Of a stretch of 57,468 nt of DNA, positions 11,969 through 33,965 are shown in pieces. The notes under the pieces are model-generated. The model was not told the DNA's origin, searched no databases, and was given only the letters and a program-made list of their open reading frames with translations. The translations under genes were made by a program, and so were the position numbers. Positions within the stretch are counted from its first letter, which is position 1; every line of letters starts with the position of its first letter. This DNA comes from Planctomycetia bacterium. GTDB lineage: Bacteria > Planctomycetota > Planctomycetia > Pirellulales > UBA1268. The DNA lies in NCBI GenBank assembly GCA_021414115.1, contig JAIOPD010000065.1:1-57468 (forward strand). Reading direction: 5' to 3'.

Positions 11969-12192
11969 CCGGCCACCTTCACGCTGCGTCGATATCCGCC
12001 CCACGCCGCAGTTTCGTGAATCGCTCTGGCTGGCGAGAATTTCAGACGGTTTTGACGGGCCTTCGGCGAGACTGCCCTCCAGCCCTCCCCGTCGTCGTTC
12101 GGGCTTCCTGGCTCCCCAAAACGGTGCTGGGCCAGTGCCTTCGACGCGATAAGCGGTTCGTCGTCCTTCTCAACGACGAGATGGGCGAGCCG
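11969..12192 (+). pseudogene. HEXXH zincin-like gene, N-terminal fragment (repeat of 16801-17024)
   Basis: This 224-bp block is nearly identical to 16801-17024, with a constant 4832-bp offset and only a few substitutions. It encodes VNRSGWREFQTVLTGLRRDC, then PPALPVVVRASWLP and RDKRFVVLLNDEMGEP, the part that precedes the HEWAH motif in related copies. Homology between copies stops exactly after GEP, where an IS110-like tail begins. The fragment therefore lacks the metal-binding motif and cannot be functional. Confidence 0.7.
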
Positions 12193-12300
12193 CCAAAGCT
12201 CGTGCTCACGGCCTGCATGAGGAAACTCCTCGTCATCCTCAATGCCATGCTGCGCACCGGCGAGTCCTGGGGGCCGCGGCTGGCAACCGTGACCGAGTGA
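12193..12300 (+). mobile_element. IS110-family transposase C-terminal remnant
   Basis: In frame with the preceding fragment the sequence reads PKLVLTACMRKLLVILNAML and ends in a stop at 12298-12300. The LTACMRKLL.ILNAM pattern is typical of the C-terminal Transposase_20 region of IS110 elements. Only about 35 codons remain, with no catalytic part. Its junction with the zincin-like fragment marks an insertion followed by deletion. Confidence 0.7.
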
Positions 12301-12376
12301 CTTCCCCTCCCTCATGGAAATGTCTTCTTCGGAAGCATGATCTGCACCATGCCCCCCTTGAAAACCAACACAGCCG

Positions 12377-12408
12377 CTTGGTCGTGTGTTCGAATCACAC
12401 CGGGCCTA
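12377..12408 (+). other. tRNA 3'-end fragment, att-like scar (a)
   Basis: The 32-bp stretch contains a T-arm (GTGTG-TTCGAAT-CACAC) and the 3' acceptor strand CGGGCCT plus A, identical to 15671-15702. There is no anticodon arm or 5' half. It is best read as an attachment-site remnant left by an element targeting a tRNA gene. Confidence 0.7.
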
Positions 12409-12454
12409 CTTCGATTTGGTTCCGTGATTTCCCGAACCGATGGCTTCTCCGGGG

Positions 12455-12590
12455 GGCAGCGTCAGGGAGAGGCAAGACCGTCCTGGAGGCGGTCAAGAAG
12501 ATCGGCGTGACGGAGCAGACCTACTACCGATGGAAGAAGAAGTTCGGGGGCCTGCGGATCGACCAGGCACGTGCTGCCGATGAGCCGGAG
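12455..12590 (+). mobile_element. IS3-family OrfA remnant
   Basis: A plus-strand frame reads GRGKTVLEAVKKIGVTEQTY followed by YRWKKKFGGLRIDQAR, the helix-turn-helix core of IS3-family OrfA proteins (compare SEQTYYRWRKEYGGL). Homology ends abruptly after IDQAR, so the leucine zipper and all of OrfB are missing. No terminal inverted repeats were recognised. Confidence 0.75.
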
Positions 12591-12747
12591 AATCTTTCGG
12601 GCGAGACTGGCTCCACCAACTATCCGGCCATCGGTGTAGTCATCGAGACCAAAACCGGCTTTTTGCTCCGCTCCACCTGCTGCGAGATCGCCGCCCGGCA
12701 CATCTGCGTGACTGCCTCGATCTTTCTCACATTTCTGTCCGTTGTGA

Positions 12748-13310
12748 TCATGTCGGCTCCTGCGTAAGGCATGGGCCGACAACACCATTTTGATCAGATG
12801 TCAAGGCTTGAACCGCAACACTTGAGGACTCCGCGTGCATGCGATCCGTATCTGTTTGCTGCAGTGTTCGAATGACGCGATCAATAGCTTGGGTCTCGGT
12901 CGCGGAAATCTTTCCTAATCCCATAAACCCACCAGATGCATCTGCGACCAGACGACAGAGCCTGACAATTTCATCAATCAACTCGTTATAAATCGAAGGA
13001 TTGAGACTGGCCGAGGCCGCCGCAGAAAACTCTGCCCAAATCTCCCACAGTTCTTCGGTGGGCTTTTTGCGAAACCAGTCATGAGCGATCACCCTGGAGA
13101 TGGTCTCCTGCGAGATCCCCTTGCTCACTAAAATGTCAGCGATGGCTTCCTTTTCTAATCCCGAATGCCGGTCGCATTTGCAAACAGCCGAATTTTCTCC
13201 TCTCGCTGAAGACGCTCGCCAAGCAGTTCGATCAGTTCTCGATCCACCTTGTAGAAGAACGCTTCTTCCAAGACTTTGCCACGAGTCGGTTGGGCTGATC
13301 GGGCTAGCAT
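12748..13310 (-). pseudogene. Broken conserved hypothetical gene (MLARSAQPTRG protein)
   Basis: ATG 13310 follows a good Shine-Dalgarno (AAGGAGA) and opens MLARSAQPTRGKVLEEAFFY, then KVDRELIELLGERLQREEKI and RLFANATGIRD, stopping at TAG 13155-13157 after 51 residues. The adjacent frame then resumes protein-like sequence from about 13160: LEKEAIADILVSKGISQETI, HDWFRKKPTEELWEIWAEF, ending at 12748. Two good segments in different frames imply a deletion or frameshift near 13158, and the loss of an intervening stretch is plausible. From memory, planctomycete proteins that start this way carry a TerB-like VAWADGK core that would be missing here; this is recollection, not evidence. The remaining C-terminal ~60 residues are of uncertain quality. 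Confidence 0.55.
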
Positions 13311-13537
13311 CTGATTCTCCTTTTTTAAGAATCAACAGTGCACTCCTTCTTGTCGTCGAATTTTAAACGACTCCATTACCAAAGCGCACCAGATATTTGG
13401 TAACGGATCGTTAGGTTTTTTCAATGAATAAGCGCGTCGCTGACCTCGGCGTTTCAATGCTTTCCAAACGTGATTTCCCACCACAGCGAGCCGATGCAGC
13501 AACATCGCTTCCGTAAATCGCGGTTATCGGAGGCGGG

Positions 13538-13905
13538 TCATCTGGCTTCCATGCTCGGGTAAGACCGTTCAGTTTCCCAGTCATCGCTGATTTCACTGAG
13601 GACTGCCGAGACCATCCTCAGCGGTGATGCCTCGTTTGGGAACAGCGTGGCGACGCGGGTGCGGCGTTTCATCTCCTTGTTGAGTCGCTCAAGGCCGTTG
13701 TTCGTTCGCAGTCTCCGGCGGTGGCCAGGAGCGAAGCCGATGACGGTGACGGCTTCCGCTACGTTGGCCTCACACCAGCTGGCAAGACCGGGGGTAGACT
13801 TTCGATAGCGAGCGACTTTGTCTCTTTGAGACATCGGTCGGCCTCGGTGGCGTTGAAGATTCGTTTGCTGTCCCGGGCGTCATCGACCCGCATCATCCAC
13901 GCTCA
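13538..13905 (-). mobile_element. IS256-family transposase C-terminal remnant, frameshifted
   Basis: The minus frame ending at 13538 reads RRRLRTNNGLERLNKEMKRR, TRVATLFPNEASPLRMVSAV and LSEISDDWETERSY, diagnostic of the C-terminus of IS256/mutator-type transposases. Just upstream, RIFNATEADR occurs in a neighbouring frame and matches the (D)IFNA..R.EA segment that normally precedes it, so a frameshift lies near 13830. The DDE catalytic region is gone and no terminal repeats are evident. Confidence 0.8.
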
Positions 13906-15303: not shown

Positions 15304-15512
15304 GCAGTTTTTCACGTTCGGCGCAGGCCGTCGAAGGCCTTCTGCACGAATGGGCGCACGCGCTGGCCTGGAACTACTCCGTCGACCGGCTGGCTGGACT
15401 TCCCGGGCTTGACCCAGTGGCCTTCGAGCGGGCCTGCCGTGACGAGGCCTGGGGCTGCGCCTACTCGCGGGTCTGGCGGGCGTACTTGGAAGTGATCAGA
15501 GAGGCGGCGTGA
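15304..15512 (+). pseudogene. HEXXH zincin-like gene, C-terminal fragment (copy b)
   Basis: The frame reads QAVEGLLHEWAHALAWNYSV, DRLAGLPGLDPVAFERACRD and EAWGCAYSRVWRAYLEVIRE, ending at TGA 15510-15512. HEWAH fits the HEXXH zinc-binding pattern, and C-terminal acidic residues could supply a third ligand. The N-terminal half seen at 11969-12192 and 16848 is missing here. An upstream GTG could give a 94-residue ORF, but its first 25 residues look random. The stop lies 148 bp before tRNA scar (b). Confidence 0.65.
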
Positions 15513-15534
15513 CGGCGGCAGGCAGGCCTCGGCA

Positions 15535-15554
15535 CTGTTAGCCAAACTGTTAGC
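15535..15554. promoter_or_regulatory. Tandem CTGTTAGC motif, possible integrase arm site (b)
   Basis: CTGTTAGC occurs at 15535-15542 and 15547-15554, a 12-bp period. The same pair is at 33799 and 33811. In both loci the first motif starts 125 bp before the tRNA-half scar. Spacing and placement resemble arm-type binding sites of tyrosine integrases; this is inference. Confidence 0.45.
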
Positions 15555-15659
15555 AAATGCCCTCTCAACGCCGAAATCCTGCGCCGGACGACATGCGCCG
15601 TTCCCGAAGAAAACGCATGACCGCGATACGACCGTGACCTATTCTTCCGGCTCGTCTCC

Positions 15660-15702: not shown

Positions 15703-15738
15703 GTTGTTTTTGCTGATTTTCGGAGAGGACAAAGTCCC

Positions 15739-15762
15739 AAACCCAAACTCAAACCCAAACTC
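15739..15762. repeat. Two-copy 12-bp tandem repeat
   Basis: AAACCCAAACTC is repeated twice without interruption directly after scar (b). It is a short low-complexity tract with no obvious role. Confidence 0.6.
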
Positions 15763-15852
15763 GGGTGGGTTCGGGAGGGCATGGGCAGGAGACCGGGATC
15801 GGATCCGAAGGGATCTTGGCCCACAAGAAGCCAATCCGAAACGAATGATTGA

Positions 15853-16029
15853 ATGGACGAACGCACCAACTTCTTCGTCGGCTGGGGAACCCTCGCCCTC
15901 ATCAATGCGGGGCTGGCACAGGGCAAGGGCAGGAGCGGGCTGATCTGGTGCCTCCTGTCGCTCGTCCTTGGGCCGATAGCGACCTTCCTGATCGTCGTGC
16001 TCGGCAAGGTGCCGGCAGACATTGAGTGA
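15853..16029 (+). CDS. Small membrane protein, 58 residues
   Basis: ATG 15853 opens a 58-codon frame ending at TGA 16027-16029: MDERTNFFVGWGTLALINAG, LAQGKGRSGLIWCLLSLVLG, PIATFLIVVLGKVPADIE. It contains a hydrophobic segment of about 18 residues (near 30-50) and a semi-hydrophobic one near 8-20, so a one- or two-pass membrane protein is likely. No strong Shine-Dalgarno precedes it. It lies 150 bp after tRNA scar (b) and ends two bases before the convergent integrase remnant, so it is probably element cargo. I do not recognise a named family. Confidence 0.55.
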   Translation: MDERTNFFVGWGTLALINAGLAQGKGRSGLIWCLLSLVLGPIATFLIVVLGKVPADIE

Positions 16030-16031
16030 GG

Positions 16032-16800
16032 TCAGGCGACCCCCTGCCCCTCGCTCTGATCAGCACCGTCATCCAACCTCTTTTGAAACCTCCGCCTCTG
16101 AATCGGCGTGAGTCTCTTCATGAGGGCATCCATCTCCCGCTCAACCGTGATCTCCACGGGATCACACCCAAGTCGTTCGGCCAGGGCAGGATAATCCTGG
16201 AGAGCGACGGTCATATTCTCGTAGAGGCCATCGGCGAGGAGCCTGTCCTTCCTCCCGATGCGAGCGAGGTAGTTGCGTTCCATATTGCCGACCGTGGTCT
16301 GCAGCTTCGCCGCCGCGGCCTTCCTCTTGTCCCGCATTTCCCCCTCGTTGGTCAGTTCGTGAGCCGTTCGCCGAAGGGCATGGTGGGTGATTTCGGGACG
16401 GTCGATCGCCGATGCCCCCTGCTTGATCAGTTTCTGCATTCGCCACAGCATCCGTTGCGGACTGAATGACTTGACGGCGTGGCAGGTTTTGAGCGACCGC
16501 TCCACTTCGTCCGCAAACCCCGCGAACGCGAAGGGGTTTCCCTCCACCCGAAATGATTCCAGCCTCTCTCGAATCGCGGCCGGGATTCTGACGGCCTTTC
16601 CGTTGCCCTTCTTGGCGATGGTGTGGGGGATCACGATGTAGTCCCCGACAAACCATGACCATTCGAGAAGCGATATCTCCTCAATCCGGCCGGCAGCCCA
16701 CAGGCTCGTAATGATGAAAAGTTCGGCTAAAGGTCTTCCTCGGAAGGCGTCAAGGAACTTCAGGAGCTCGCCGTTGTCCGTTCTGAACTGAACCGGGGCT
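16032..16800 (-). pseudogene. Tyrosine recombinase (integrase), catalytic domain remnant
   Basis: From about 16800 downward the frame reads FRTDNGELLKFLDAFRGRPL, TSLWAAGRIEEISLLEWSWF and later EITHHALRRTAHELTNEGEM, then TTVGNMERNYLARIGR, ending at 16032. GRIEEI supplies the first catalytic Arg, HHALRRT the H-x-x-R box, and the Tyr in RNYLARI is the likely nucleophile. The ~110 upstream codons of the open frame (to 17141) are antisense to the zincin-like gene and are not integrase sequence. The core-binding and arm-binding domains are absent, so it is a 5'-truncated integrase whose break coincides with the edge of the 224-bp repeat at 16801. It lies next to scar (b), where an element integrase is expected. 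Confidence 0.75.
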
Positions 16801-16847
16801 CCGGCCACCTTCACGCTGCGTCGATATCTGCCCCACGCCGCAGTTTC

Positions 16848-17213
16848 GTGAACCGCTCGGGCTGGCGAGAATTTCAGACGGTTTTGACGGGCCTTCGGCG
16901 AGACTGCCCTCCAGCCCTCCCCGTCGTCGTTCGGGCTTCCTGGCTCCCCAAAACGGTGCTGGGCCAGTGCCTTCGACGCGACAAGCGGTTCGTGGTCCTT
17001 CTCAACGACGAGATGGGCGAGCCGCAGGCCGTCGAGGTGCTCTGCCACGAATGAGCGCACGCGCTGGCCTGGAATTTCGCCGTCGATCGGCTCATCAACG
17101 CGCCCGACACCGACCCTGTGGAATTCGAGCGGGCCTGTCACGACGAGGCCTGGGGCTGCGCCTACTCGCGGGTCTGGCGCGCGTATCTGGACGTGATTCG
17201 GGACGCGGCGTGA
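16848..17213 (+). pseudogene. HEXXH zincin-like gene, full length with an in-frame TGA in HEWAH (copy c)
   Basis: From GTG 16848 the frame reads MNRSGWREFQTVLTGLRRDC, PPALPVVVRASWLPKTVLGQ, RDKRFVVLLNDEMGEPQAVE and VLCHE, hits TGA at 17052-17054, then continues in the same frame as AHALAWNFAVDRLINAPDTD, PVEFERACHDEAWGCAYSRV, to TGA 17211-17213. Copy (b) has TGG (Trp) at the interrupted position, so one G-to-A change destroyed the HEWAH motif. The 121-codon unit is otherwise intact and is the best template for the family: a small putative zinc-dependent hydrolase with a Trp/Cys-rich tail. An open upstream frame (SISAPRRSF) may extend the N-terminus. It sits 139 bp before scar (c). The function is unknown. 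Confidence 0.65.
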
Positions 17214-17351
17214 CGGCGGTTCCCCCGGGGGCCCGAAACTGTTAGGCGCAGGCGTTTCGGCGCAGGAATCCCGCGATCAGCCACACGCGCCGTTCCCGAG
17301 GAATTTGCACAAGCGCGAGACGAGCGCGACTTGACTGTGGGTTCTATTCGC

Positions 17352-17404: not shown

Positions 17405-17958
17405 TTGCAGAAACCACGGGAAAGAGTGGGGTTCGGGATCGGGCAGGCGGTAACGAAATCCGCCGACAGGGGGAACCCGACCCCGGCAGGGTGCATCGCA
17501 ATGAGCGAAGCCACCATTCGCTGAATCCGCTCGGGGATGTCGGCTGATTCGTTGGGCATGTGGATGCGTAACAAAACAAGCCATAAGGGTTTACGTTGTT
17601 ACTCAAAATGTGGAAATTGTTCAGGAATCCGACGGGCATGCAGAGCGGTGGCTCGGTGCGGCGCACCTGGAAGGAGCCGCCCGACGAATTTCCCGTAATC
17701 GACATCCGCAGCCACTGACGCCGCCCTCGTGCTGCAGCCTTACGCGGGGGCTCAACCGCAGGCTGGCGGCACGGAGCCTTTCGAGCGCGTCCTTCGCGGG
17801 AATCGAGGAGTTGCGAACGGCGTTCGCGCCGTCATTCAGGATCTCGACCAGGCGTCGCATTTGTCAGTCCCGCTGTGCTGGTGCCAGACGGCGTTGATAG
17901 GTATCGTCCGGGCCGACGTTTCCTGGTAGCAGCGGGCGTCGCACGGACGAACGATCGT
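17405..17958. other. Intergenic stretch, no confident gene
   Basis: About 550 bp between scar (c) and the LRR-BVMO gene. Minus-strand frames include a protein-like patch (MPNESADIPERIQRMVASLI at about 17500-17560) and another (MRRLVEILNDGANAVRNSSI near 17800-17860), but each runs into clear nonsense or the tRNA half. They may be eroded gene ends. No RNA gene or terminator was recognised. Confidence 0.4.
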
Positions 17959-20445: not shown

Positions 20446-20466
20446 AGCCCATTCGACCTTGCTGCA

Positions 20467-20487: not shown

Positions 20488-20498
20488 AAGTCTCGTCG

Positions 20499-25207: not shown

Positions 25208-26379
25208 TCCGCAAGGCTCTTGCGTCTCTTCGTGGCTGGCAGGACGCATGGCACGCGCGGCGACTTCTCGCCGAGAACTTCGCCCGGCGCCGCCATGCAC
25301 CGCTGGCGATCGAGCAGCTCTTTCCGTCGGGCGGCACGCCCCGACGGATCCTGCTCCTGGTCGAGCGGGAGGAACTCTACGGTCGGTCCTTCTTTCTCGA
25401 CAGCCTCGGCGGACAAATCGTCCGTGGGATTCCGCCGCAGACCCGGCCCGATGATGTCGCGATCTGCTTCGGCTACACGGCCCTCGAGCGGCATGCGGCC
25501 CGGCTGCGAGCCAGCGGCATCACGAACCTGCTGTTCATCGAAGCCGGCTTCCTGCGCGGGGTGCTGCTCGACAATTCCTGCTCGATCTACGACCAGGCCC
25601 TCTGCTTCTTTGTGGACGATCTCGGCTTTCACTTCGATCCCACGTCTGCCACGCGGCTGGAGTGCCTGCTCAACGATCCGCAGCTGAATCCCACGGCAGC
25701 CGACCTAGAGCGAGCCCGGGCATTGCGCACGCGGATCGTGGAGTCGCGGCTCACCAAATACAACGACCAGCCCATGGCAGTTCCGGTCGGGCCGAAGCAG
25801 TCTGGCCGCGTGCTCGTCGTCGAGCAGGCCCGTAACGACTGGGCTGTGCTCAAGAGCGGTGGCAATCGCCGGTGTTTCGACTCGATCCTGCAGGCCGCGA
25901 TCGACGAGAACCCGGATGCCGAGATAGTCGTGAAGGTGCATCCCGACTCGCTCGACGGCAAACGAGGCGGCCTGCGGCGATCGTACTTCGGCCGCCTGCA
26001 GGGAAGCGGCCGGGTCACGATCGTGAGGGAGAAGGTCAATCCGTTCGCGCTCCTGGAGAGTATCGACGCGGTGTATGTCTTTTCGTCGATGCTCGGCTTC
26101 GAAGCCGCTCTCATGGGGAAAGACGTGCACGTCTTCGGAAAGCCCTGCTACGCCGGCTGGGGCTTTACCCGGGATCGTCGCGCCGTTCCCCGGCGCGACC
26201 GCCACCGCTCGCTCGATGAACTCGTACACTTCATCTACTTCGCGTATCAACACCACAAGGATCTCGAGGGCCAGTGGTGCGAGCCCGAGGCTGCGGTCGA
26301 CATACTCCTGGCATTGCGTGAGCGGTACATGGCGGAGGCGGAGGCGGTATCGCCGGGCCGCGCGTCGGAGGCTGCCTGA
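25204..26379 (+). CDS. Capsule polysaccharide biosynthesis protein, KpsC/LipA-like
   Basis: From GTG 25204 the protein has 391 residues. ILLLVEREELYGRSFFLDSL and LFIEAGFLRGVLL fit the first Rossmann half, and VLVVEQARNDWAVLKSGGN the second. Conserved features of the capsule-synthesis family follow: VVKVHPDSLDGKRGG, FALLESIDAVYVFSSMLGFE, then DVHVFGKPCYAGWGFTRDR with RHRSLDELVHFIYFAY. KpsC-type proteins are retaining beta-Kdo transferases that make the linker of group 2 capsules; here only one unit is present. The GTG overlaps the upstream TGA by four bases, and the next gene starts two bases after this stop, which implies one operon. A role in starting or anchoring a surface polymer is inference. 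Confidence 0.8.
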   Translation: MIRKALASLRGWQDAWHARRLLAENFARRRHAPLAIEQLFPSGGTPRRILLLVEREELYGRSFFLDSLGGQIVRGIPPQTRPDDVAICFGYTALERHAARLRASGITNLLFIEAGFLRGVLLDNSCSIYDQALCFFVDDLGFHFDPTSATRLECLLNDPQLNPTAADLERARALRTRIVESRLTKYNDQPMAVPVGPKQSGRVLVVEQARNDWAVLKSGGNRRCFDSILQAAIDENPDAEIVVKVHPDSLDGKRGGLRRSYFGRLQGSGRVTIVREKVNPFALLESIDAVYVFSSMLGFEAALMGKDVHVFGKPCYAGWGFTRDRRAVPRRDRHRSLDELVHFIYFAYQHHKDLEGQWCEPEAAVDILLALRERYMAEAEAVSPGRASEAA

Positions 26380-26381
26380 CG

Positions 26382-29159
26382 ATGGATCGCTTCGTCGATA
26401 TCCCTACACTGCTCGTGACGCGCGGCCGCACGCACGCCACGCGGTCGGCGATCGAGACCCCGGCGGGCGCCGTGCTGACCTACGCCGAACTCGCCGCCCG
26501 CGTGGCCGTCATCGCCACAGGCCTGGCGGCCGCGAGGATTCGTTCGCGGCGGCGGCGACCGCGGATCGCGATCGTGATGCCCAATGGTGCGGATCTGGCC
26601 GTGGCCCTGCTCGGCGTGACCGCCGTGGGCGAGGCAGCGCCCTTCAATCCGGCGAGCACGGCCTCCGAGCTCGACCTTTACTTTCGCAACACTGGCGTCG
26701 ATGCGGTGCTCGTGCGGGCCGATGCCAACGGCGCGGCTGTCGCCGTGGCAGAGGCGAGCGGCCTGCCGCTCCTCCGGCTCACGCCTCGGCTCGAGATCGC
26801 GGGCTTCGAGCAGCCGGCGGCAGAGTTGCCGCCAGCCGCGGCCGATGACATCGCGCTCGTGCTGCTGACGTCGGGCTCCACCGGGCGGCCGAAGATCGTG
26901 CCGCTCACCCACCGGAACGTCTGCGTATCGGCCGGCGACGTGAGCCGGTCGATGCAGCTCACCGAACACGATTGCTGCCTCTGCATGTGGGAGCAGTATC
27001 ATGTCGGGGGCCTCGTGGATCTTCTCCTCGCGCCGCTCTCGACCGGCGGCCAGGTGATCGTCACGGCGGGCTTCGACGCGGCGGATTTTTTCAAGCTTCT
27101 GCACGCAAAGTCGCCCACCTGGTTTCAGGGCGTGCCCACGACGCTCAACGAACTCGTGCTCTCGGCCAGGCGGACCGGAGTGGTAACCAAGGCCAGCTCG
27201 CTCCGACTCGTGCGGTCGGTGGCCGCCGCCCTGCCGCCGACGCTCATGCACGAACTCGAGGCATCGTTCGGCGTGCCCGTGATCCAGACCTTCGGAATGA
27301 CAGAGGCCGGCCCGCTCATCACCTCGACACCGCTACCGCCCGGGGAACGAGTACCGGGCTCCGTGGGGGCGACGTGCGGGCCCGAGATCAGGATCGTGCC
27401 CGGGGCTGCGCCGACACCTGACGGTGTACCGGACGGTCGGCTCGTCGGCGAGGTGGCCATCCGCGGCCCGAATGTGTTCGCGGGCTACGAGAACGACGCC
27501 GAGGCGAACCAGAAGGCCTTTCGTGACGGCTGGTTCTTGACCGGCGACATGGGCTTTCTCGATGCCGCGGGCAATCTCCATCTTACGGGCCGGATCAAGC
27601 AGCTCATCAACCGGGGTGGCGAGAAGATCAACCCGCAGGAGGTCGACGACGCGATTCTGTGCCATCCCGCGGTCGCTGAGGCGGCCACGGTGGCCGTTCC
27701 GCACAAGACCCTTGGCGAGGATGTCGCGGCTGCCGTCGTGCTCAAGAGCGCGACGACTGCGGACGACCTCCGCCGGTTTCTCGAGACGCGGATCGCGGCC
27801 TTCAAGATTCCACGGCAACTGCTCGTGCTCGACAGACTGCCGCGGAATCCCGTCGGCAAGCTCGACAAGATCGCCATCTCCGGCGTGCTCGCCGCGGCCT
27901 GCGCCGAGACGGGCCACGTCGCGCCCCGCACACGGCTCGAAGCTCTGATCGCCGGCATCTGGGAGCAGGAGCTCGGCATTCCCGCCGTTGGCGTGCACGA
28001 CGACTTCGCCACGATCGGGGGGGATTCGCTGAGCAGCGTGCGGATTCTCCTGGCGGTCGAGCAGGCGGTCGGTAGCCGGGTTCCCCAGGCGGTGTTTGCC
28101 CACGCCTCGACGATCGCGACGATCGCCGCGAAACTCGGGGCGGCCGGCGTGAAGGCTCCCGGTCTCGATGGCCAGGCGATCGAGGCGGTGCTTTCCACGG
28201 CGCGGACGGGCACCGAATGCCTCGGCTCATCGCCCGGCGAGGCGAGCATGCGGCTTGAAAAGGCCGCATCGACGGGAGACCTGACGAGCGTTCACGACTC
28301 GATGTCGCTCTACGCCACGCCGGCGGAGCTCAAACAGCTCCTGCACGATACCCGGCGGACTCGGCCCGCGAGGTCCGCACCGGATGTCGGCTTACGGGAT
28401 GCCTGCAAGCTCTGGCAGCAGCACGCCCGCTGGCGCCGGGATGTGCTGCGGGAGATCACGGCAGCGGCTACGGCGGATGCCTGGCGGCGAGAGAGCCTGT
28501 GCCGGTCGGTGTTTCATTACTCCGCCGCCGGCCGCCCCGAGGCGAAGACGCTCGTGGTGGGCTTCGGGGGCAACTACCTGCGACTGATGGTGCCAGCGCA
28601 TCGCATCCTGATGCACCTCGATCCGCAGCGGGTGGATCTCCTGCTGCTTGCCGACGAGCGGCGGTCGCTCTTCGTGCATGGCATCGACGGGATCGCCGGC
28701 AGCCTCGCCGACCTGTGCGACCACGTGGATCGGTTCGCGTCGGCCAGGGGCTATGCACGGGTGGTTGCGCTGGGCACCAGCAGCGGCGGTCCACCGGCCA
28801 TCTACGCCGCGATTCGCCAAGGCTGGGACAAGGCGGTCGCCGTGGGGCCGGGCAGCCCGGCTCGTCATCCCGACATGGCTGTCGCCCTCCAGTCGGTCGT
28901 GCCGCTGCAGGCCACGAGGCCGACGGAGATCGTCATCGTCACGTCGGCCAACGTCCGCGACACCGACGCCGCCCACCAACTCCGCAGCCTGTTCCCGGGC
29001 ATCGTACTGGAACGAGACGATCGATTCGACAACCACAACCTACTACACGACCTGCAGAGAATGGGGGAACTGCGGTCGTTTCTCACCCGCGCGGTGCATG
29101 GGCCGCGTGGGGCCGACCACCCGGGAGCAGCGCGAGCATCGGCTCGCCCGGCGGCATGA
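26382..29159 (+). CDS. Adenylation-carrier-hydrolase protein (ANL ligase + PCP/ACP + alpha/beta hydrolase)
   Basis: The 925-residue protein has three modules. Residues 1-505 are an ANL adenylation domain: LLTSGSTGRPKIVPLTH (161-177), FGMTEAG (304-310), TGDMG (387-391), GRIKQLINRGGEKINPQEVD (403-422) and NPVGKLDK with catalytic Lys near 495. TSTPLPPGERVPGSVG recalls oxalyl-CoA-synthetase-type ligases more than canonical NRPS domains. Residues about 515-585 are a carrier domain with IGGDSLSSVRI; Ser549 is the phosphopantetheine site. Residues about 720-905 resemble an alpha/beta hydrolase with GTSSGG near 799-804 (probable nucleophile Ser801) and a late His in DNHNLLHDL. It could activate an acid, load the carrier and pass it to a sugar or release it. 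No condensation domain is present. It starts two bases after the capsule gene. Confidence 0.85.
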   Translation: MDRFVDIPTLLVTRGRTHATRSAIETPAGAVLTYAELAARVAVIATGLAAARIRSRRRRPRIAIVMPNGADLAVALLGVTAVGEAAPFNPASTASELDLYFRNTGVDAVLVRADANGAAVAVAEASGLPLLRLTPRLEIAGFEQPAAELPPAAADDIALVLLTSGSTGRPKIVPLTHRNVCVSAGDVSRSMQLTEHDCCLCMWEQYHVGGLVDLLLAPLSTGGQVIVTAGFDAADFFKLLHAKSPTWFQGVPTTLNELVLSARRTGVVTKASSLRLVRSVAAALPPTLMHELEASFGVPVIQTFGMTEAGPLITSTPLPPGERVPGSVGATCGPEIRIVPGAAPTPDGVPDGRLVGEVAIRGPNVFAGYENDAEANQKAFRDGWFLTGDMGFLDAAGNLHLTGRIKQLINRGGEKINPQEVDDAILCHPAVAEAATVAVPHKTLGEDVAAAVVLKSATTADDLRRFLETRIAAFKIPRQLLVLDRLPRNPVGKLDKIAISGVLAAACAETGHVAPRTRLEALIAGIWEQELGIPAVGVHDDFATIGGDSLSSVRILLAVEQAVGSRVPQAVFAHASTIATIAAKLGAAGVKAPGLDGQAIEAVLSTARTGTECLGSSPGEASMRLEKAASTGDLTSVHDSMSLYATPAELKQLLHDTRRTRPARSAPDVGLRDACKLWQQHARWRRDVLREITAAATADAWRRESLCRSVFHYSAAGRPEAKTLVVGFGGNYLRLMVPAHRILMHLDPQRVDLLLLADERRSLFVHGIDGIAGSLADLCDHVDRFASARGYARVVALGTSSGGPPAIYAAIRQGWDKAVAVGPGSPARHPDMAVALQSVVPLQATRPTEIVIVTSANVRDTDAAHQLRSLFPGIVLERDDRFDNHNLLHDLQRMGELRSFLTRAVHGPRGADHPGAARASARPAA

Positions 29160-29929
29160 TGCCTCTCGCAAGCCTGTTCCGATCCCGGCAAGCAGCCGAC
29201 GAGGTGCCGCGGGTGGCCATCATGGGCGGTCTCCGCACGGGCACCAACTATCTGAAGTTTCTGCTCGAGAGCAACTACGTGGTGCGGGGGGAATTCAACG
29301 GCTTCGGCTGGAAGCACGGGGGCGTGCCGATACTGCCGGCGGGCGGGCCCTGCGCCTATCCCGACATCCCGCTCTGCTACATCGTCAAGAATCCTTTCGC
29401 CTTCGTGCGCTCGCTCCATAGCTACCACTGCCGTAAGCGGGACCAGGGGCATGCGATCAGCCTCGTCGCGGCTGAGCCGTGGGACGAGTTTCTCACCAGC
29501 CCGATCGTGATCTTCGACAGCCAATTGGCCGGCTCGCCGCAGTTGCGATTTGCCAACCCGGTTCACTACTGGAACTTCTTGTATTGGAACCTTGAGACGC
29601 TCGACCGGCAGCGGTTTCGCGTCTGGGGCGTGAACTACGAGGATCTCGTCGCCGACCCGCAGCGGCTCCGGGAGATCGAAGGTGTGGCACCGCTCGTGCG
29701 TCGTCACGCTGAAATCGTGACGCCCGGTAACAAGCTCAAGCGGCTCGGCGGCGGGGCCGACGTCGCGGCGGCCAGTGGGTACGAAACTGCCGAGCGGTTC
29801 GATGCCGACGCCTACATGTCGGCCGCCTATCTCGACGCCTTCAGTGAAGCCCAGCGGGCATTCATTCGTGCCGAAACCGATCCCTGGCTGATCGACCGCC
29901 GCGGCTATGCCGACGTGCTGCGCGGGTGA
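29156..29929 (+). CDS. Sulfotransferase-like protein
   Basis: ATG 29156 overlaps the preceding TGA by four bases (ATGA), giving 257 residues. VAIMGGLRTGTNYLKFLLES at 20-39 is a P-loop-like PAPS-binding segment of the sulfotransferase fold (G..R.GTNYL). LCYIVKNPFAFVRSLHSYH near 80-98 fits the second, R/K-x-P-type phosphate-binding element. WNLETLDRQRFRVWGVNYED gives the usual late acidic motif. The family is more diverged than the one at 24473, and the donor cannot be confirmed. It is the last gene of the plus-strand coupled run and converges with a glycosyltransferase only six bases away. It may sulfate the same polymer as 24473, or act on a different acceptor. Confidence 0.75.
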   Translation: MMPLASLFRSRQAADEVPRVAIMGGLRTGTNYLKFLLESNYVVRGEFNGFGWKHGGVPILPAGGPCAYPDIPLCYIVKNPFAFVRSLHSYHCRKRDQGHAISLVAAEPWDEFLTSPIVIFDSQLAGSPQLRFANPVHYWNFLYWNLETLDRQRFRVWGVNYEDLVADPQRLREIEGVAPLVRRHAEIVTPGNKLKRLGGGADVAAASGYETAERFDADAYMSAAYLDAFSEAQRAFIRAETDPWLIDRRGYADVLRG

Positions 29930-29935
29930 ACGCTG

Positions 29936-30739
29936 CTACTCTCGCCAGATGCCGTGCTGCTCCTGAAAGTAGCGAATGCAGGCGGCGTTGGCCTGCTCGC
30001 GGTGGTGGTCGGCGTAGACGTAGTCCACGAGGGCCGCGACGTCTGCGAGGTCGGTCTTGTGCGACAGCTCGGTGGCCGATGCCTTGAGGATCGGAATCCC
30101 GGCGAGGGCCAACTGGCCGGAGAGCCAGATGTCGTCCACGGTCCAGAGCAGGTCAGGGATGTCGAATGCCGCTGGCGTGAAAAACTCCGGCCGCACGAGC
30201 ACGCCGCCGTAGCCCTTGCAGATGTCAACGCGTCCGGCCTCGACCTCGAGGGCCTTCATGCCGCGGCGGTACATCGAGCTGAAGAGCCCGAGCGTGGCGG
30301 TCGCGAGGCCGCGATAGAGGCGGGTGGACTTGAAGGCCTTTTTGAGCGTGAGAGGCACAACTTCGCCCACCTCGGCAATGCAGCAGCCAGGCTGGGTGTC
30401 GCTCGCTGCGAGGAGCCGCGCGGCCCAGCCAGGATCGTAGATTCGGTCGTCGTCGCAGTAGAGGATCCGCATGTCGTGACCGCGAAATGCCGCGCACGCG
30501 GGCAGAATTTTTGTGGCTGGCCCGTGGTCGAAGTCGCAGCGTCGCACCTCGATGCCGGCCGGCAAGGCCGGCAGTGTGAACGAGCCAAACTCCGGGCGGC
30601 GGTAGGCGCGGGGAATCCAGAGGATCACGCCGTCGATCCGGGCCTCCTGCCGCAGCAGGCTCTCGAGGGTAGGCCCGATTCGGTCCATCCGTGGCGGAAT
30701 CGATGTCAGGGAGATGATGGTGTCGGGGGCTTTGGGCAT
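29936..30739 (-). CDS. GT-A fold glycosyltransferase family protein
   Basis: I start at ATG 30739 (267 residues), where the product opens MPKAPDTIISLTSIPPRMDR; the longer upstream ORF is Arg-rich noise. Conserved elements are LESLLRQEARIDGVILWIP, TKILPACAAF, and MRILYCDDDRIYDPGWAARL near 95-115, whose DDD is the metal-binding motif. DLLWTVDDIWLSGQLALAG gives a second acidic pair. The layout matches bacterial GT-A enzymes that add sugars to surface polymers. It is divergent from 30813 with a 73-bp gap, so promoters lie back to back. No signal peptide or membrane helix is visible, which implies cytoplasmic action. Confidence 0.75.
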   Translation of the reverse strand: MPKAPDTIISLTSIPPRMDRIGPTLESLLRQEARIDGVILWIPRAYRRPEFGSFTLPALPAGIEVRRCDFDHGPATKILPACAAFRGHDMRILYCDDDRIYDPGWAARLLAASDTQPGCCIAEVGEVVPLTLKKAFKSTRLYRGLATATLGLFSSMYRRGMKALEVEAGRVDICKGYGGVLVRPEFFTPAAFDIPDLLWTVDDIWLSGQLALAGIPILKASATELSHKTDLADVAALVDYVYADHHREQANAACIRYFQEQHGIWRE

Positions 30740-30812
30740 CGGAAGTCTGCGACAGCGTCGCGGGCCGCAACTGAGGTTGCCCCCAGAAGTGGCGGTTTGG
30801 GACAATCCAACT

Positions 30813-31835
30813 ATGTTCAACCTCTTTCGCAGCCGACGCCAGTCCAAACGTCCGCACGGCCGCCGGTCGGCGCCGGACCCTCACGAGATCGTGTCGTCGT
30901 TCCGGCTGGCCGGCCAGGATGGCCACCCGGCGGCCACGTCACCCGTGTCGTTCCTGCACTACCGCACCTCGGTCTTCAATCTCGGGGATTACCTCAGCAG
31001 CCCACGGCACTATTTTCGGTTCGTGCCCCGAGCCGGCGGCCGGCCGGTGGCGGTGATCGGCGGGGGCGTCTTTGGTCGCTACGAGCGGATTCGCGGTCCA
31101 GGGGAGCCGATCGACCTCGACAACCGGTCGCGGGTGGCGTGGGGGGTGGGGCTCAGCCTCAAGGGAGAAGATGGTGGCGGCGTCGAGCGGCTTGCCGAGA
31201 TGGCGCGGTCGTTCGACGCGGTCTCTACCCGTGATCCCGATCACGTCAGCGACGCGGTGCAATTCTGTCCGTGTTCGAGCGTGCTCAACGGCATCGTGGA
31301 CATCCCGCCGGGTGAGCACACGGGGGTTCTGCTCAACTTCGACCCCCGGGCCAGCGGCCGAAATCCGCTCGCGATGCTGGCGACCTTTCGCGATGTCGTG
31401 ACGGGCGTGAATGCCGTGTCGGAGCGGGACTTTCGCCGCTATTTCGCCCGCTGTGGCCGGGTCGTCACCAACTCTTATCACACGGCGTTTTGGGGGCTGC
31501 TCTCCGGGCGGGCGGTGGCGATCATCGGCTTTTCGTCGAAGTATGACAGCATCCATTCGATGTTCGGCCTGCCGTTAGCACCGCGACGCTACGTCATGGG
31601 AGACGCGGAAAGCCTGCGGGCCGCGATCGCGGCCGCGCTCGCCGAAAACTCCTTTGTGTCGCTTGCCGACGCCCCCGCCTGGTGCGACCGGTTTCGGGAC
31701 CTGAATCGCCGGTATGCCGACCGGCTCGTGGCGGCAGGGCTCTTTGAGCGGATCGAGCCGATCGTGGACGATGACGACGCGCTCGACCGCCGGGAGGCCG
31801 AGATCTTCGCCGAGTATGTGCTCCGGGAGTGGTGA
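30813..31835 (+). CDS. Polysaccharide pyruvyltransferase-like protein
   Basis: Starting at ATG 30813 gives 340 residues. The core reads FLHYRTSVFNLGDYLSSPRH, GGRPVAVIGGGVFGRYERIR, then VAWGVGLSLKG, AVSTRDPDHVSD with a conserved SxRD pattern, and RVVTNSYHTAFWGLLSGRAV, which contains the SYH signature. FSSKYDSIHSMFGLPLAPRR follows. Members of this superfamily transfer pyruvate or related groups onto cell-wall polymers. It differs clearly from the family member at 22867, so two separate modifications are possible. The following gene starts four bases after this stop and is probably co-transcribed. The basic N-terminal 40 residues lack a signal peptide. Confidence 0.78.
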   Translation: MFNLFRSRRQSKRPHGRRSAPDPHEIVSSFRLAGQDGHPAATSPVSFLHYRTSVFNLGDYLSSPRHYFRFVPRAGGRPVAVIGGGVFGRYERIRGPGEPIDLDNRSRVAWGVGLSLKGEDGGGVERLAEMARSFDAVSTRDPDHVSDAVQFCPCSSVLNGIVDIPPGEHTGVLLNFDPRASGRNPLAMLATFRDVVTGVNAVSERDFRRYFARCGRVVTNSYHTAFWGLLSGRAVAIIGFSSKYDSIHSMFGLPLAPRRYVMGDAESLRAAIAAALAENSFVSLADAPAWCDRFRDLNRRYADRLVAAGLFERIEPIVDDDDALDRREAEIFAEYVLREW

Positions 31836-31839
31836 GGGC

Positions 31840-33147
31840 ATGCTGCCCCGTATTGGTGCCATCTCGGTTTCTGGGCTCGGGCGGCTCGACTTCCGCGCGA
31901 TCGCGCCGGCGGTGTGGCGTAGCGTCACCTCCCGGTGCGGAGATCCGCTGCGGCATCTGGCTGCCGAGTCGGCGTTCCTGGCAGGAGAGTTCGATCGTGC
32001 GCTCGCTCGTTTTCGAGGCGTGACACGTGACCCAGTGCTGGGGCCGCGGGCCCGGCTGATGGAAGACTGGATCCGGTTTCACCGCGACGATGTTTCCGTC
32101 GGCTGGCCGCGTTATCCGGGCACCGACTACCAGGAGCCCGTCGCAGGCAGGGCGACCACCGCCATGCGCGGCGTGCGCGTTGCCGATCCACGTCGCCCGG
32201 ATGAGCTGGCAACGCATCTCGGAATGCGACGTTGGACCCGGACCGATTCACTCGATGGACCACTGCTTGTGTGGTTCAACTTTCGTGACAGCCTGGGCGG
32301 CGAGATTCTCGCGAGTCGATTGATCCGGTCGTTTCGGCGGCTTCATCCCGTTCCGCTGTTCCTGGGCTGTGGTTCGCGGCTCGTGACGCTCTTCCGGGAG
32401 TCGTTCCCCGAGTGTGAGGTGATCGATAACTCGGGCCCCGTGGACGGGCTCGCCGGACGCTGCCAGCGCTACGTGCTCGCCCGCGATCTTTTGGGCATGG
32501 TGGTAGGTCGTCCGGAAGACTTCGCCGGCCCTGCGGCCGAGCGGCTCCGCGTGCCCGCGGCAGCGCTCGGCACCTTGCCCGGCAGAGCGCACCGCCCGCA
32601 GGTGGCCTTCTCGTGGAAAACGACGAACGATCACCAAGGTCGCTATCGCAACGTGCCGGTCGCCGATCTGGCACGAGTGCTGGCCCGCCACGATTGCGAC
32701 TGGCACGTGGCCCAGCATGGTGCCGTGGCAGATGATCTCGCCGTCCTGCGGCGGTCGGTAGCCAAGGACCGTCTGCACACCGACACCCTGCACCCGGCGG
32801 CCGACATGGCGACGTTCGCGGGCGAGTTGGCGGCAGTCGATGCCGTGGTCACGGTCGACAACTCCTTGCTGCACCTTGCCGGTGGCCTGGGGATCCCGAC
32901 CCTCGGCCTGCTCACCATCCCTGCGTATTGGGCCTGGCCGGTCGAAGGCCCGGAGAGTCGCTGGTATTCAGCCGTCCGGATGCTGCGGCAGCGGAAGCCG
33001 GGCGACTGGCGAGCCGTGATCGAATCGTTGGACGCCGCTCTTCTTCAAACTACGAAACGGGTTTCGGAAACCGCGGTGATGTCCCTGGTCATGTCGCGCA
33101 CCACGAAGGTGACGGCGTCGACGACCGGCATGCCCTGGAAACCGTAA
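31840..33147 (+). CDS. GT-B/family 9-like glycosyltransferase, C-terminus probably replaced at an island junction
   Basis: ATG 31840 gives 435 residues. LLVWFNFRDSLGGEILASRL near 132 and VAFSWKTTNDHQGRYRNVPV near 250 define the two Rossmann halves. VDAVVTVDNSLLHLAGGLGI near 335-355 is the nucleotide-sugar site of GT9 and O-GlcNAc-like enzymes, followed by PTLGLLTIPAYWAWPVEGPE and RQRKPGDWRAVIESLDAAL. The last ~34 residues (from about 33046) are antisense to the DPAGR-family gene and look random, so the native stop was probably lost when the island inserted. All catalytic parts lie upstream, so activity may survive. The gene is the end of the glycan locus. The first ~100 residues are not recognised. 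Confidence 0.72.
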   Translation: MLPRIGAISVSGLGRLDFRAIAPAVWRSVTSRCGDPLRHLAAESAFLAGEFDRALARFRGVTRDPVLGPRARLMEDWIRFHRDDVSVGWPRYPGTDYQEPVAGRATTAMRGVRVADPRRPDELATHLGMRRWTRTDSLDGPLLVWFNFRDSLGGEILASRLIRSFRRLHPVPLFLGCGSRLVTLFRESFPECEVIDNSGPVDGLAGRCQRYVLARDLLGMVVGRPEDFAGPAAERLRVPAAALGTLPGRAHRPQVAFSWKTTNDHQGRYRNVPVADLARVLARHDCDWHVAQHGAVADDLAVLRRSVAKDRLHTDTLHPAADMATFAGELAAVDAVVTVDNSLLHLAGGLGIPTLGLLTIPAYWAWPVEGPESRWYSAVRMLRQRKPGDWRAVIESLDAALLQTTKRVSETAVMSLVMSRTTKVTASTTGMPWKP

Positions 33148-33536
33148 TCATTGCTTGTGGGCCGGCTAGCGATCACGCGAGCTACTCTCTCATCCGGCCC
33201 CACCCAGCCCCGCGCATCCAAGTCCAGCCTCGCGTGCTCAATCCCCTCAAGGCTGCGCTGGCACTCGTAGATCGTTTCGTTCAACACCCTCACACCCGCA
33301 TTCAAATCCGCGTGCCTGACCCCATCGGCGTGAAGCGGGTCGAATTCGCAGATATTCGGCATGTGGCGGGCGTTGGTCGTGATCTCCGCCAAGAACTCCA
33401 GATACGGCGACGCGTACTCTTTCTTCGGCCGGCCTGAATGGTACTTGGGGTCGCCGGACGTCATGCGGCGGACCTTTCCAATAGCGGCCAACAGTTCCCG
33501 GCCTGCTGGATCGTTGAATGAACTTGCAGATGACAT
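33045..33536 (-). CDS. Hypothetical DPAGR-family protein, element-associated
   Basis: ATG 33536 follows AAGGAGG at good spacing and gives 163 residues: MSSASSFNDPAGRELLAAIG, KVRRMTSGDPKYHSGRPKKE, YASPYLEFLAEITTNARHMP, continuing into RVLNETIYECQRSLEGIEHA and RLDLDARGWVGPDERVARVI. Composition is soluble, balanced and protein-like. I do not recognise a family. The N-terminal DPAGRELLAA recalls the frameshifted gene at 10534-10820 (DPAGRQLLAA), and the two have an identical 22-bp leader. Both lie at the left end of a tRNA-scar island, with a HEXXH fragment 85 bp upstream here. It overlaps the convergent glycosyltransferase by 103 bp, which is unusual and marks the junction. Confidence 0.65.
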   Translation of the reverse strand: MSSASSFNDPAGRELLAAIGKVRRMTSGDPKYHSGRPKKEYASPYLEFLAEITTNARHMPNICEFDPLHADGVRHADLNAGVRVLNETIYECQRSLEGIEHARLDLDARGWVGPDERVARVIASRPTSNDYGFQGMPVVDAVTFVVRDMTRDITAVSETRFVV

Positions 33537-33538
33537 TA

Positions 33539-33560
33539 GGCATCCTCCTTGATGCGTTGG
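33539..33560 (-). promoter_or_regulatory. Shared 22-bp leader with Shine-Dalgarno (second copy)
   Basis: This stretch is identical to 10822-10843 on the same strand and contains AACGCATCAAGGAGGATG. The start ATG of the downstream gene lies 5-7 bases after the GGATGCC. Confidence 0.55.
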
Positions 33561-33621
33561 GCGTGCCGGGCTGCGTGGGCCGCGGCGAGAATCTGGACTT
33601 TTGACGTTTCGTGTGCCCGGC

Positions 33622-33774
33622 GACGTGCTCTGGAACTTTCCACTCGACCGGCTGGCCAAGACGCCGGGGCTCGATCCCGTGGAGCTCGACCGCGCGTGCC
33701 ATGACGAGGCTTGGGGCTGCGCCTATTTGCGGGTCTGGCGGGCGTATCAGGAGGTCGTCCGGGAGGCTGCGTGA
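33622..33774 (+). pseudogene. HEXXH zincin-like gene, C-terminal fragment (copy d)
   Basis: The frame reads DVLWNFPLDRLAKTPGLDPV, ELDRACHDEAWGCAYLRVWR and AYQEVVREAA, ending at TGA 33772-33774. It is the tail seen in copies (b) and (c), but HEWAHALA is missing; only the W of the following ALAWN remains. The upstream flank is unrelated, so a deletion joined this tail to the DPAGR leader. Its stop lies 150 bp before scar (d), nearly the same as at (b). Confidence 0.65.
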
Positions 33775-33798
33775 CGGCAGTGCAGTGGGTCTTCGGCA

Positions 33799-33818
33799 CT
33801 GTTAGCAAAACTGTTAGC
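33799..33818. promoter_or_regulatory. Tandem CTGTTAGC motif, possible integrase arm site (d)
   Basis: CTGTTAGC starts at 33799 and 33811, again 12 bp apart. The first starts exactly 125 bp before scar (d), as at scar (b). The ~100 bp between motif and scar are also closely similar in the two loci. Confidence 0.45.
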
Positions 33819-33923
33819 AAACACCCTCTCGGCGCCAAAATCCTGCGCCAATCGACATGCGCCGTTCCCGAGGAATTCGCATGACCGCGATACGACCGTG
33901 ACCTATTCCTCGGGTTCGTCTCC

Positions 33924-33965
33924 ACTCAGAATCCCTTGGTCGTGTGTTCGAATCCCACCGGGCCT
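33924..33965 (+). other. tRNA 3'-half scar (d), decayed relative of (b)
   Basis: The sequence matches scar (b) except for changes such as CAT to CAG in the anticodon and CACAC to CCCAC in the T-stem, which breaks a pair. No 5' half is present. A true tRNA-Leu(CAG) would have a long variable arm, which is absent, so this is a mutated copy, not a different tRNA. No gene is seen from here to 34106. Confidence 0.7.

Follow-up and report, generated by a model that had tools for sequence, protein, structure and literature searches.

What leaves four tRNA 3′ ends, each without its 5′ half, at one chromosomal locus, and are they the work of one family of integrative elements? We addressed this question in the whole stretch of DNA analyzed, 57,468 nucleotides of contig JAIOPD010000065.1 from a Planctomycetia bacterium (hereafter the window). 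A first-pass annotation had reported four partial tRNA 3′ ends of at least two types (Met-like CAT and Leu CAA), all of which we recovered on the + strand:

12377-12409, + strand: scar a, elongator tRNA-Met(CAT) positions 42-74 (100%); left-end half of element E1, tRNA 5′ half lost
15660-15702, + strand: scar b, elongator tRNA-Met(CAT) 3′ half, positions 31-73 (100%), from the anticodon loop
17352-17404, + strand: scar c, tRNA-Leu(CAA) 3′ half, positions 31-83 (98%), from the anticodon loop
33924-33965, + strand: scar d, decayed elongator tRNA-Met(CAT) 3′ half, positions 31-72 (95%)

As reported, none of them is a complete tRNA; ARAGORN found none in the window. In agreement with the annotation, three scars (b, c and d) begin at the anticodon loop, at its 5′ edge, and scar a begins in the variable loop, with left-end sequence directly behind it. 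Scar d, in which CAT has become CAG and the T stem is altered, seems to be a Met half in decay rather than a third tRNA. The suggested search for a full tRNA matching each scar elsewhere in the genome succeeded for Met, which has an intact elongator gene at C135:100-172 (the contig ends 99 bp away), but not for Leu(CAA), whose sole match in the source draft assembly is scar c itself. A group I intron in the tRNA anticodon loop was considered as the cause of the break point and rejected, as the window had no Rfam match up to E 1 in a scan that also missed the tRNA halves.

Each scar is preceded by a copy or fragment of one gene encoding a SprT-like protein with a HEXXH motif, as the annotation had also noted:

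11926..12192, + strand: HEXXH gene 5′ fragment before scar a, fused to other sequence; 225 nt (11969-12193) are 98% identical to 16801-17025
15324..15512, + strand: HEXXH gene 3′ fragment before scar b
about 16800-17213, + strand: near-complete HEXXH gene before scar c, with an in-frame TGA inside the HEXXH motif and ~20 N-terminal residues missing
33631..33774, + strand: HEXXH gene 3′ fragment before scar d

The gaps from the HEXXH stop to scars b, c and d are about 147, 138 and 149 bp, which confirms the spacing described earlier for three sites. These three scars are right ends of one element family, which we call type A, with a fixed 150-bp end behind the HEXXH gene:

15510..15658, + strand: type-A right end at scar b; profile score 136 bits; arm-like pair CTGTTAGC at 15535 and 15547
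17211..17350, + strand: type-A Leu-type right end at scar c; profile score 104 bits; one exact arm-like repeat remains, at 17239
33772..33922, + strand: type-A Met-type right end at scar d; profile score 149 bits; arm-like pair at 33799 and 33811

The right-end profile that gave 136, 104 and 149 bits spans the 150 bp preceding these scars and was partly built from the same ends. We exclude chance as the source of the common right end because the profile scores are high and the end recurs at tRNA halves in other genomes. The proposed right end of HEXXH gene, arm sites and attachment site therefore stands for b, c and d but not for scar a, which is a left end.

Counted from the anticodon loop, the arm-like repeats of type A (CTGTTAGS) lie at −125, −113 or both; nine right ends have them at both positions and eight more at one, Met and Leu alike. 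In related genomes, the type-A right end adjoins Met and Leu(CAA) 3′ halves, and its last part is also found at no fewer than two Lys(TTT) halves (counts of Met, Leu and Lys halves are minimum values among the matches listed), which bears out the earlier suggestion of several tRNA targets. The same repeat pair occurs at left ends next to intact Met, Leu(CAA) and Lys tRNAs and, at several of them, lies inside or adjoins the 3′ end of a tyrosine-integrase gene. We detected 21 repeat pairs in 16 of the 72 family genomes and the reversed pattern three times; among the matches listed, at least 19 of the 21 pairs are located at genes or halves of Met, Leu(CAA) or Lys tRNAs. The HEXXH gene did not prove to be the strict marker that it had been taken for, as full-length type-A ends in L237, L238 and L245 have no HEXXH match. 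Several other end types use the same anticodon loop, including right-end types at Met halves without HEXXH.

The tRNA targets share a candidate core, GGA-CTNNNAA-TCC. Among 43 distinct tRNAs of G000, only elongator Met, Lys(TTT) and Phe have it, and it is also present in the Leu(CAA) tRNA of relatives. Halves of tRNA-Phe show the same break point as the type-A scars; the repeat pair was absent upstream of all eight with readable flank (L302 to L307, L310), which carry other end types. The Phe half in L308, with 13 nt of upstream flank, was left out of these eight. Because the core rule predicts Phe and these eight halves carry other end types, Phe gives no confirmation for type A.

The annotation had made enrichment of HEXXH homologs at tRNA halves the test of its proposal. 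Our census of the 72 genomes comprises 39 rows, representing 37 genes or fragments from 22 HEXXH-positive genomes; a further fragment at the right end of G039:C65 (L247) is not counted among the 37. An anticodon-loop tRNA half lies just downstream of 14, and a T-loop-type tRNA 3′ end, called by eye, downstream of four, so that 18 of the 37 have a tRNA 3′ end downstream (L077 and L087 of these are 3′-truncated). Seven are 5′ or internal fragments or are cut by a contig end, including the window copy before scar a. The association is not universal: of the 30 genes whose 3′ flank can be read, 12 lack a clear tRNA end (L067, L074 and L078; group C14, L071, L073 and L076; and five distant copies with 32 to 39% identity). 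The HEXXH gene is conserved and mobile, and was not found at some type-A ends.

Of the intact elements that the annotation had proposed to look for, parts were recovered. In four loci, an intact tRNA is paired with a displaced 3′ half in one orientation, with HEXXH or a fragment of it before the half (Met in L062 and L068, Leu in L075, Lys in L087), but no single contig combined HEXXH on the right with a full-length integrase on the left. The integrase gene of L062 is retained only at its end, L068 and L087 contain integrase remnants, and neither L068 nor L075 has an exact left repeat pair. Flank matching gave no clear type-A empty site in relatives; the flank-matched empty-site pairs involve other end types only (L246 with L194, and L226 with L169). 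Pfam searches of 30 chosen ORFs from L062, L083, L068 and the window found neither relaxase or secretion genes nor capsid, portal or terminase genes.

Full-length integrases by left repeats in L281 and L300 adjoin intact tRNA-Leu and match PF00589 (E 1.2e-8 and 2.2e-8), and the former also matches PHROG 1 at E 6.4e-29. Integrase relatives occur in eight of the 72 genomes, seven of them HEXXH-positive, compared with 22 of 72 overall (Fisher p 0.0007); those in G002:C392, G013:C166, G017 and G037 have no intact Met, Leu or Lys tRNA next to them. Integrase genes are found at left ends beside intact tRNAs, as had been supposed, but the remnant that the annotation had pointed out near scar b belongs to a different element type, X:

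15703..16801, + strand: type-X left end with integrase gene remnant, element type other than A; z 45 and 39
16032..16790, − strand: truncated type-X tyrosine integrase; PHROG 1, E 1.9e-6

This left end is 94% identical over 170 nt, and 98% over 835 nt, to L183, which in G053 follows an intact tRNA-Met, and for this reason the remnant at 16032-16790 was dropped as the cognate type-A enzyme. Its product has no Pfam integrase match; a full copy of the type-X integrase (L298, 470 aa) matches PHROG 1 at E 3.2e-16.

The other features of the locus are as follows:

11148..11858, − strand: HTH gene (HTH_23-like, weak), remnant of E0, whose right end is lost
12410..12465, + strand: type-A Met-type left-end remnant following scar a, no arm repeats left; z 22, 15 and 13 against the left ends of L233, L299 and L062
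17414..17447, + strand: type-A Leu-type left-end remnant, ~34 bp; z 7.2 to 8.8 against four Leu left ends
17875..33147, no strand assigned: probable cargo of E3; 8 of 10 ORFs with a Pfam match at E 1e-5
33045..33659, − strand: conserved 'DPAG' gene upstream of HEXXH; homologs in L061, L062, L065, L071 and L079

Judged from sequence, the window is a decayed array of an E0 remnant, E1, a chimera and E3. By the same reading, E1 is a Met left end with a Met right end, and the chimera joins the type-X left end and integrase to a type-A Leu right end. E3 probably consists of a Leu-type left end and a Met-type right end around capsule-like genes. The probable E3 cargo encodes an FMO-like protein with repeats, an amidohydrolase, a family 2 glycosyltransferase, a pyruvyl transferase, a sulfotransferase, a capsule synthesis protein, an AMP-binding/PP-binding protein and a GT9 protein. 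A defence-family search with eight proteins gave no match. On its left side, the array has no intact tRNA. Scar d is the probable array boundary, because no sequence resembling a known left end was found after it. The annotation's view that one locus was used repeatedly is supported.

We consider it very likely that the scars are junctions of a decayed array of integrative elements of the following build. At the left end, a tyrosine integrase gene reads toward the target tRNA, with the pair of 8-bp arm-like repeats in or near its 3′ end; the right end usually comprises the SprT-like HEXXH gene and then the repeats at −125 and −113 from the core. The ends and their geometry are observed, and suggest strand exchange within the anticodon loop at the core GGA-CTNNNAA-TCC. 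With such an exchange, the left end of the element would come with a fresh 3′ half for the tRNA, and the old half would be displaced to the right end. What chiefly distinguishes Met, Leu(CAA) and Lys(TTT) is the anticodon triplet within the proposed exchange region, and related integrases would, given the common core, be able to switch among the three tRNAs. Repeated insertion, recombination between neighbors and deletion may then have produced the present window, which shows layered scars left by islands at one chromosomal site.

The islands may be comparable to Tycheposons. Those likewise carry cargo and have a tyrosine recombinase where they border tRNA genes, Met among them. Their description makes no mention in the part consulted of a SprT-like right-end gene (PMC10872708). 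Islander islands, as far as that account describes them, also combine a tyrosine integrase, a regenerated tRNA, a displaced 3′ fragment and an anticodon-centered attachment site, and include tandem arrays, only four of which have three or more members (PMC4383910). In contrast to them, one terminal gene module is found here at three tRNA genes and two attachment subsites, and the two ends of some segments differ in tRNA type. The anticodon loop with flanking stem resembles the 7-bp overlap with flanking dyad described for archaeal pT26-2-type integrases, related members of which also use different tRNA genes (PMC8371274). By that description, switching is restricted within tRNAs with or without a long variable arm, whereas both kinds (Leu with, Met and Lys without) are used here, by bacterial elements with targets sharing the GGA-CTNNNAA-TCC core (PMC8371274). 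The splitting of tRNAs at the anticodon loop by islands is well known, and the type-A family and its mixed ends appear to be new. Because the boundaries of the family are clear and it comes with an integrase, repeat sites and a core prediction, target choice by an anticodon-loop integrase and tRNA switching are directly testable.

Several other explanations have to be weighed. All genomes were treated as drafts and therefore repeats may be collapsed or misjoined, and C135 and a G032 contig end beside tRNAs. Nevertheless, we find it scarcely credible that the scars are assembly artefacts from collapsed or misjoined tRNA repeats, as identical scar junctions are embedded in long contigs of other genomes (234 kb in L062 and 192 kb in L075). 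The segment at 17.4-33.9 kb could be ordinary chromosome between remnants of two separate insertions rather than cargo of one element, a serious possibility that we do not favor. Its ends differ in tRNA type (Leu left, Met right) and the left remnant is short, but left end, conserved gene, HEXXH fragment and right end follow in the expected order and orientation, repeat proteins like those of the window occur in L062, and G037 also has a mixed segment, of Lys type in its left flank and of Met type at its right end. HEXXH could also be a widespread phage-type gene present in islands by chance, with the Met loop a hotspot for many unrelated elements, the common right end just one of these, and no HEXXH element family as such. 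Consistent with this, homologs occur in 21 viral contigs, two of which, when read, had portal, head morphogenesis, exonuclease or recombinase genes as neighbors; the genes without a clear tRNA end and the variety of right ends at Met halves without HEXXH point the same way, as does a HEXXH module 89% identical over 2178 nt between two elements of one genome with different attachment ends. We nonetheless judge it unlikely, given that a tRNA 3′ end downstream of HEXXH would be expected at ~2e-5 per gene (a rough hand estimate) and was observed for 18 of 37, that the geometry from HEXXH to the attachment site is fixed and that HEXXH is present in seven of eight integrase-bearing genomes. Rather doubtful is the idea that the protease-bearing module moves as a unit between unrelated anticodon-loop and T-loop systems, with integrases that have the anticodon in their exchange region crossing Met, Leu(CAA) and Lys sites to form hybrids; if true, such crosses could in principle put one tRNA's 3′ half or anticodon behind another's 5′ half.

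The HEXXH gene and the divergent HTH gene might instead form an ImmA/ImmR-like switch controlling excision. HTH homologs adjoin HEXXH in L060, L061, L062, L064, L066, L067, L071 and L072, and the two are divergent neighbors at scar a of the window and in L061, L062, L064, L066, L067 and L071. The L062 protein has a weak Peptidase_M78 match (E 0.028), and IrrE/PprI chains give Z 5.0 to 6.1. This role seems improbable, since SprT-like is the better Pfam match in every HEXXH copy scanned, Wss1 and Spartan come nearest in fold (Z 7.1 to 8.1; the Z of 8.1 to Wss1 is at the level for which the comparison tool warns), and the 21 viral loci yielded no HTH homolog. One of five copies, viral L113 (33.4 bits), passes the PF10263 cut-off of 25.6 bits; the island copies L062 (20.9 bits, E 0.00033) and L095 (17.3 bits, E 0.0043) are below it. 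There is no NCBIfam family for the protein and no PHROG match at E 0.001 or better; its profile matches Spartan at E 0.0054. A short SprT-like protein travels with the islands and also occurs in phages, and its family leads us to guess that it may act as a protease on protein-DNA complexes. The motif residues and a downstream histidine (H116, E117, H120 and H147) are invariant across 24 aligned HEXXH sequences.

The genome comprises 4.35 Mb in 144 contigs, and the window is the whole of contig C70. We compared its four partial tRNA 3′ ends (scars a to d) by BLAST with the intact tRNAs of relatives.

Scar a, 12377-12409: Met positions 42-74
Scar b, 15660-15702: Met positions 31-73
Scar c, 17352-17404: Leu-CAA positions 31-83
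Scar d, 33924-33965: Met positions 31-72, 95%

In the Met gene, the anticodon loop has its 5′ edge at position 31/32. The first-pass annotation asked whether each scar has a full tRNA elsewhere in the genome. This is so for Met, since contig C135 carries an intact elongator tRNA-Met 99 bp from a contig end, but the assembly gave no match to tRNA-Leu(CAA) that is intact. The missing left part of an array may join at that contig end (C135:1-172). The open frames at 33903-35129 and 33814-34062 contain the antisense of tRNA halves, with peptides such as GIRTHDQGI, and look like spurious ORFs. Mirror-image scars were seen in relatives: tRNA 5′ halves (Met, Lys) that break off on the 3′ side of the anticodon loop, at positions 38-40 (L254:3300-3337, L255:2937-2974, L313, L314).

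The ~150 bp preceding scars b, c and d resemble one another, and the SprT-like HEXXH gene or its 3′ part lies upstream of each. We refer to elements with this fixed right end as type A. The HEXXH gene was found in 22 of the 146 genomes searched, and a stricter threshold gave 21 of the order's 396 genomes; every listed match belongs to one family (f1), and the records with relatives of the gene are mostly planctomycete, one being Pirellulales. The proposal that this gene recurs beside tRNA ends in other genomes was partly borne out. Of 37 HEXXH genes or fragments, 14 are followed by a tRNA 3′ half that begins at the anticodon loop.

Met half: window b and d, L060, L062, L064, L065, L068
Leu half: window c, L066, L070, L075, L080
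Lys half: L077, L087

Four more copies (L061, L063, L069, L083) lead, by eye, into the T-loop-to-3′-end part of another CAT tRNA. Of the other 19, 7 are fragments or are cut by a contig end, and 12 have a flank that can be read and shows no clear tRNA end. By a rough hand estimate, from at least some 53 halves across 72 genomes (~3.5 Mb each), a half would fall within 200 nt after any one gene with a chance of ~2e-5.

A right-end profile, trained on 13 of these end sequences, was used to scan 1.08 Mb of fetched loci. Where a match reaches the profile's last positions it adjoins a tRNA half, including at three ends without a HEXXH match (L238, L245 and L237, the last with only ~200 bp of contig left before the end), and one shortened match (L257/L316) does not adjoin a half. 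Both Lys ends fit only the last part of the profile (49 and 52 bits), and weaker relatives (29 to 54 bits) occur at other halves (L223, L228, L239 to L242, L248). Nine ends (window b and d, L060, L062, L064, L065, L068, L070, L228) carry the 8-bp arm-like repeat CTGTTAGS at both -125 and -113 from the half start, and eight (window c, L066, L075, L080, L237, L238, L245, L247) carry it at one of these positions. A scan of 72 family genomes gave 21 occurrences of the repeat-pair pattern, spread over 16 genomes, and 3 of the reversed pattern. By our own reading, 9 of the 21 pairs lie ~62 to 75 nt downstream of an intact tRNA: Met (G018, G013), Leu (G024, G025, G002, G012, G070) or Lys (G008, G060). 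The remainder are 9 at right ends, 1 at a truncated right end, 1 after a Met half and 1, with no tRNA, near the end of a contig.

A tyrosine integrase gene reads toward the tRNA at several left ends, with the repeat pair inside or beside its 3′ end. Full-length integrases occur in L281 (428 aa; PF00589, E 1.2e-8; PHROG 1, E 6.4e-29) and L300 (444 aa; PF00589, E 2.2e-8). A copy in L299 gave a weak Pfam match to the SAM-like domain only, and its alignment retains R, HxxR, H and Y, which we take to be the tyrosine integrase motifs. Of 72 genomes, 8 carry relatives of the L281 integrase, and HEXXH is present in 7 of these 8 (p 0.0007, taking the 72 genomes as contained in the 146 searched for HEXXH). 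These integrase relatives adjoin tRNA-Leu (G025, G002, G044, G003), tRNA-Met (G013, G008) and tRNA-Lys (G008). Other relatives lie next to a Met half bearing another end type (G017), on the same contig as a Lys half (G037), and directly before a cut-off tRNA-like sequence at the end of a contig with a distant HEXXH gene (G013:C166); one (G002:C392) had no tRNA match.

The first-pass annotation also asked for intact elements with a complete tRNA and an integrase at the other end. Four loci have the complete tRNA, HEXXH or a fragment of it, and the half; the opposite integrase survives only as a remnant, in three of them.

L062: tRNA-Met with left repeats, then 16 kb, then HEXXH followed by right repeats and a Met half; only the end of the integrase gene is left (by eye against L265)
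L087: tRNA-Lys with left repeats, remnant of the integrase gene, then 4.5 kb, then a HEXXH fragment and a Lys half
L068: tRNA-Met, integrase remnant (PF00589, E 2.3e-5, below the curated cut-off), then 12 kb that include an ArsA-like ATPase as well as an SBF-family transporter, then HEXXH and a decayed Met half
L075: tRNA-Leu, 2.2 kb, HEXXH fragment, Leu half

We compared the 80 nt downstream of each scar with known left ends. A Met-type type-A left end follows scar a (z 22, 15, 13), and a Leu-type left end follows scar c (z 7.2 to 8.8). Scar b is followed by the left end of a second element type, type X (z 45, 39); this stretch runs on, at 98% over 835 nt, into an integrase gene adjoining an intact tRNA-Met in G053, where the integrase is complete (470 aa; PHROG 1, E 3.2e-16; no Pfam match). 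No known left end matched the 80 nt after scar d. These assignments therefore give the following order.

E0: remnant with HTH and a HEXXH 5′ fragment
E1: Met left end, Met right end
Chimera: type-X left end with integrase, fused to HEXXH and Leu right end
E3: Leu left end, Met right end, with an FMO-like protein and polysaccharide-type genes

E3 may be one element, or chromosome between two remnants. After left end a, 12470-12600 resembles, by eye, part of an IS3-type OrfA.

Type-A targets observed are Met, Leu(CAA) and Lys. Among the 43 distinct tRNA sequences of the window's genome, GGA-CTNNNAA-TCC occurs only in Lys(TTT), elongator Met and Phe, and the relatives' Leu(CAA) also carries it. 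We hypothesize from these sequences that this core may be the target rule of type A. Phe 3′ halves broken at the same point (31/32) occur in L302 to L308 and L310, two in tandem in L307, and those whose flanks were read have other right-end types. The anticodon loop and stem are described as fitting a 7-bp overlap flanked by a dyad, and integrases that are related but differ in their tRNA targets are on record (PMC8371274). Islander (PMC4383910) catalogues 3919 islands, of which 2083 have an anticodon-centred site, and records 4 tandems with at least three members; this kind of island is therefore already known. In the titles and abstract openings of the matches listed, outside subscription journals, there was no type-A description, either for planctomycete or Pirellula islands with tRNA or integrase or for SprT with islands.

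Two elements in G018 (L061:15729-17895 and L062) share a module of an unknown gene, an HTH gene and HEXXH, 89% identical over 2178 nt. The identity ends where HEXXH ends, and the ends beyond lead to different tRNAs. The HEXXH tree, with weak support in places, intermixes Met, Leu and T-loop types (L061 with L062, L065 with L066, L069 with L070). The island copies form two groups at a fork that the tree leaves unresolved, and thus need not be one clade. SprT-like was the best Pfam family in all five HEXXH copies scanned, with a viral copy (L113, E 4.4e-8) above the cut-off and L062 (E 0.00033) and L095 (E 0.0043) below it. An AlphaFold model (24 sequences) has pLDDT 80.5 overall and 89 to 98 at residues 51-170. 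Foldseek returned nothing below 0.001, the two best rows being Spartan entries (E 0.08 and 0.17), and a profile search reached Spartan at E 0.0054. VIA-align scored Wss1 (Z 8.1 and 8.0), Spartan (7.4) and IrrE (6.1), in a range where common arrangements also score. Phage homologs neighbor a portal protein, exonuclease and head morphogenesis protein (L113) or a UvsX-like recombinase (L109).

The sole near-complete HEXXH copy in the window (16803-17210) has an in-frame TGA at a Trp codon within the HEXXH motif. Another HEXXH group, away from tRNA halves (L028:6400-8253, L071, L076), has two more open frames downstream, the second lysine-rich. In L079 (8984-9229 and 9878-10315), a distant HEXXH copy (39%) has as its neighbor a 'DPAG' gene nearly identical to that of L062 (88%).
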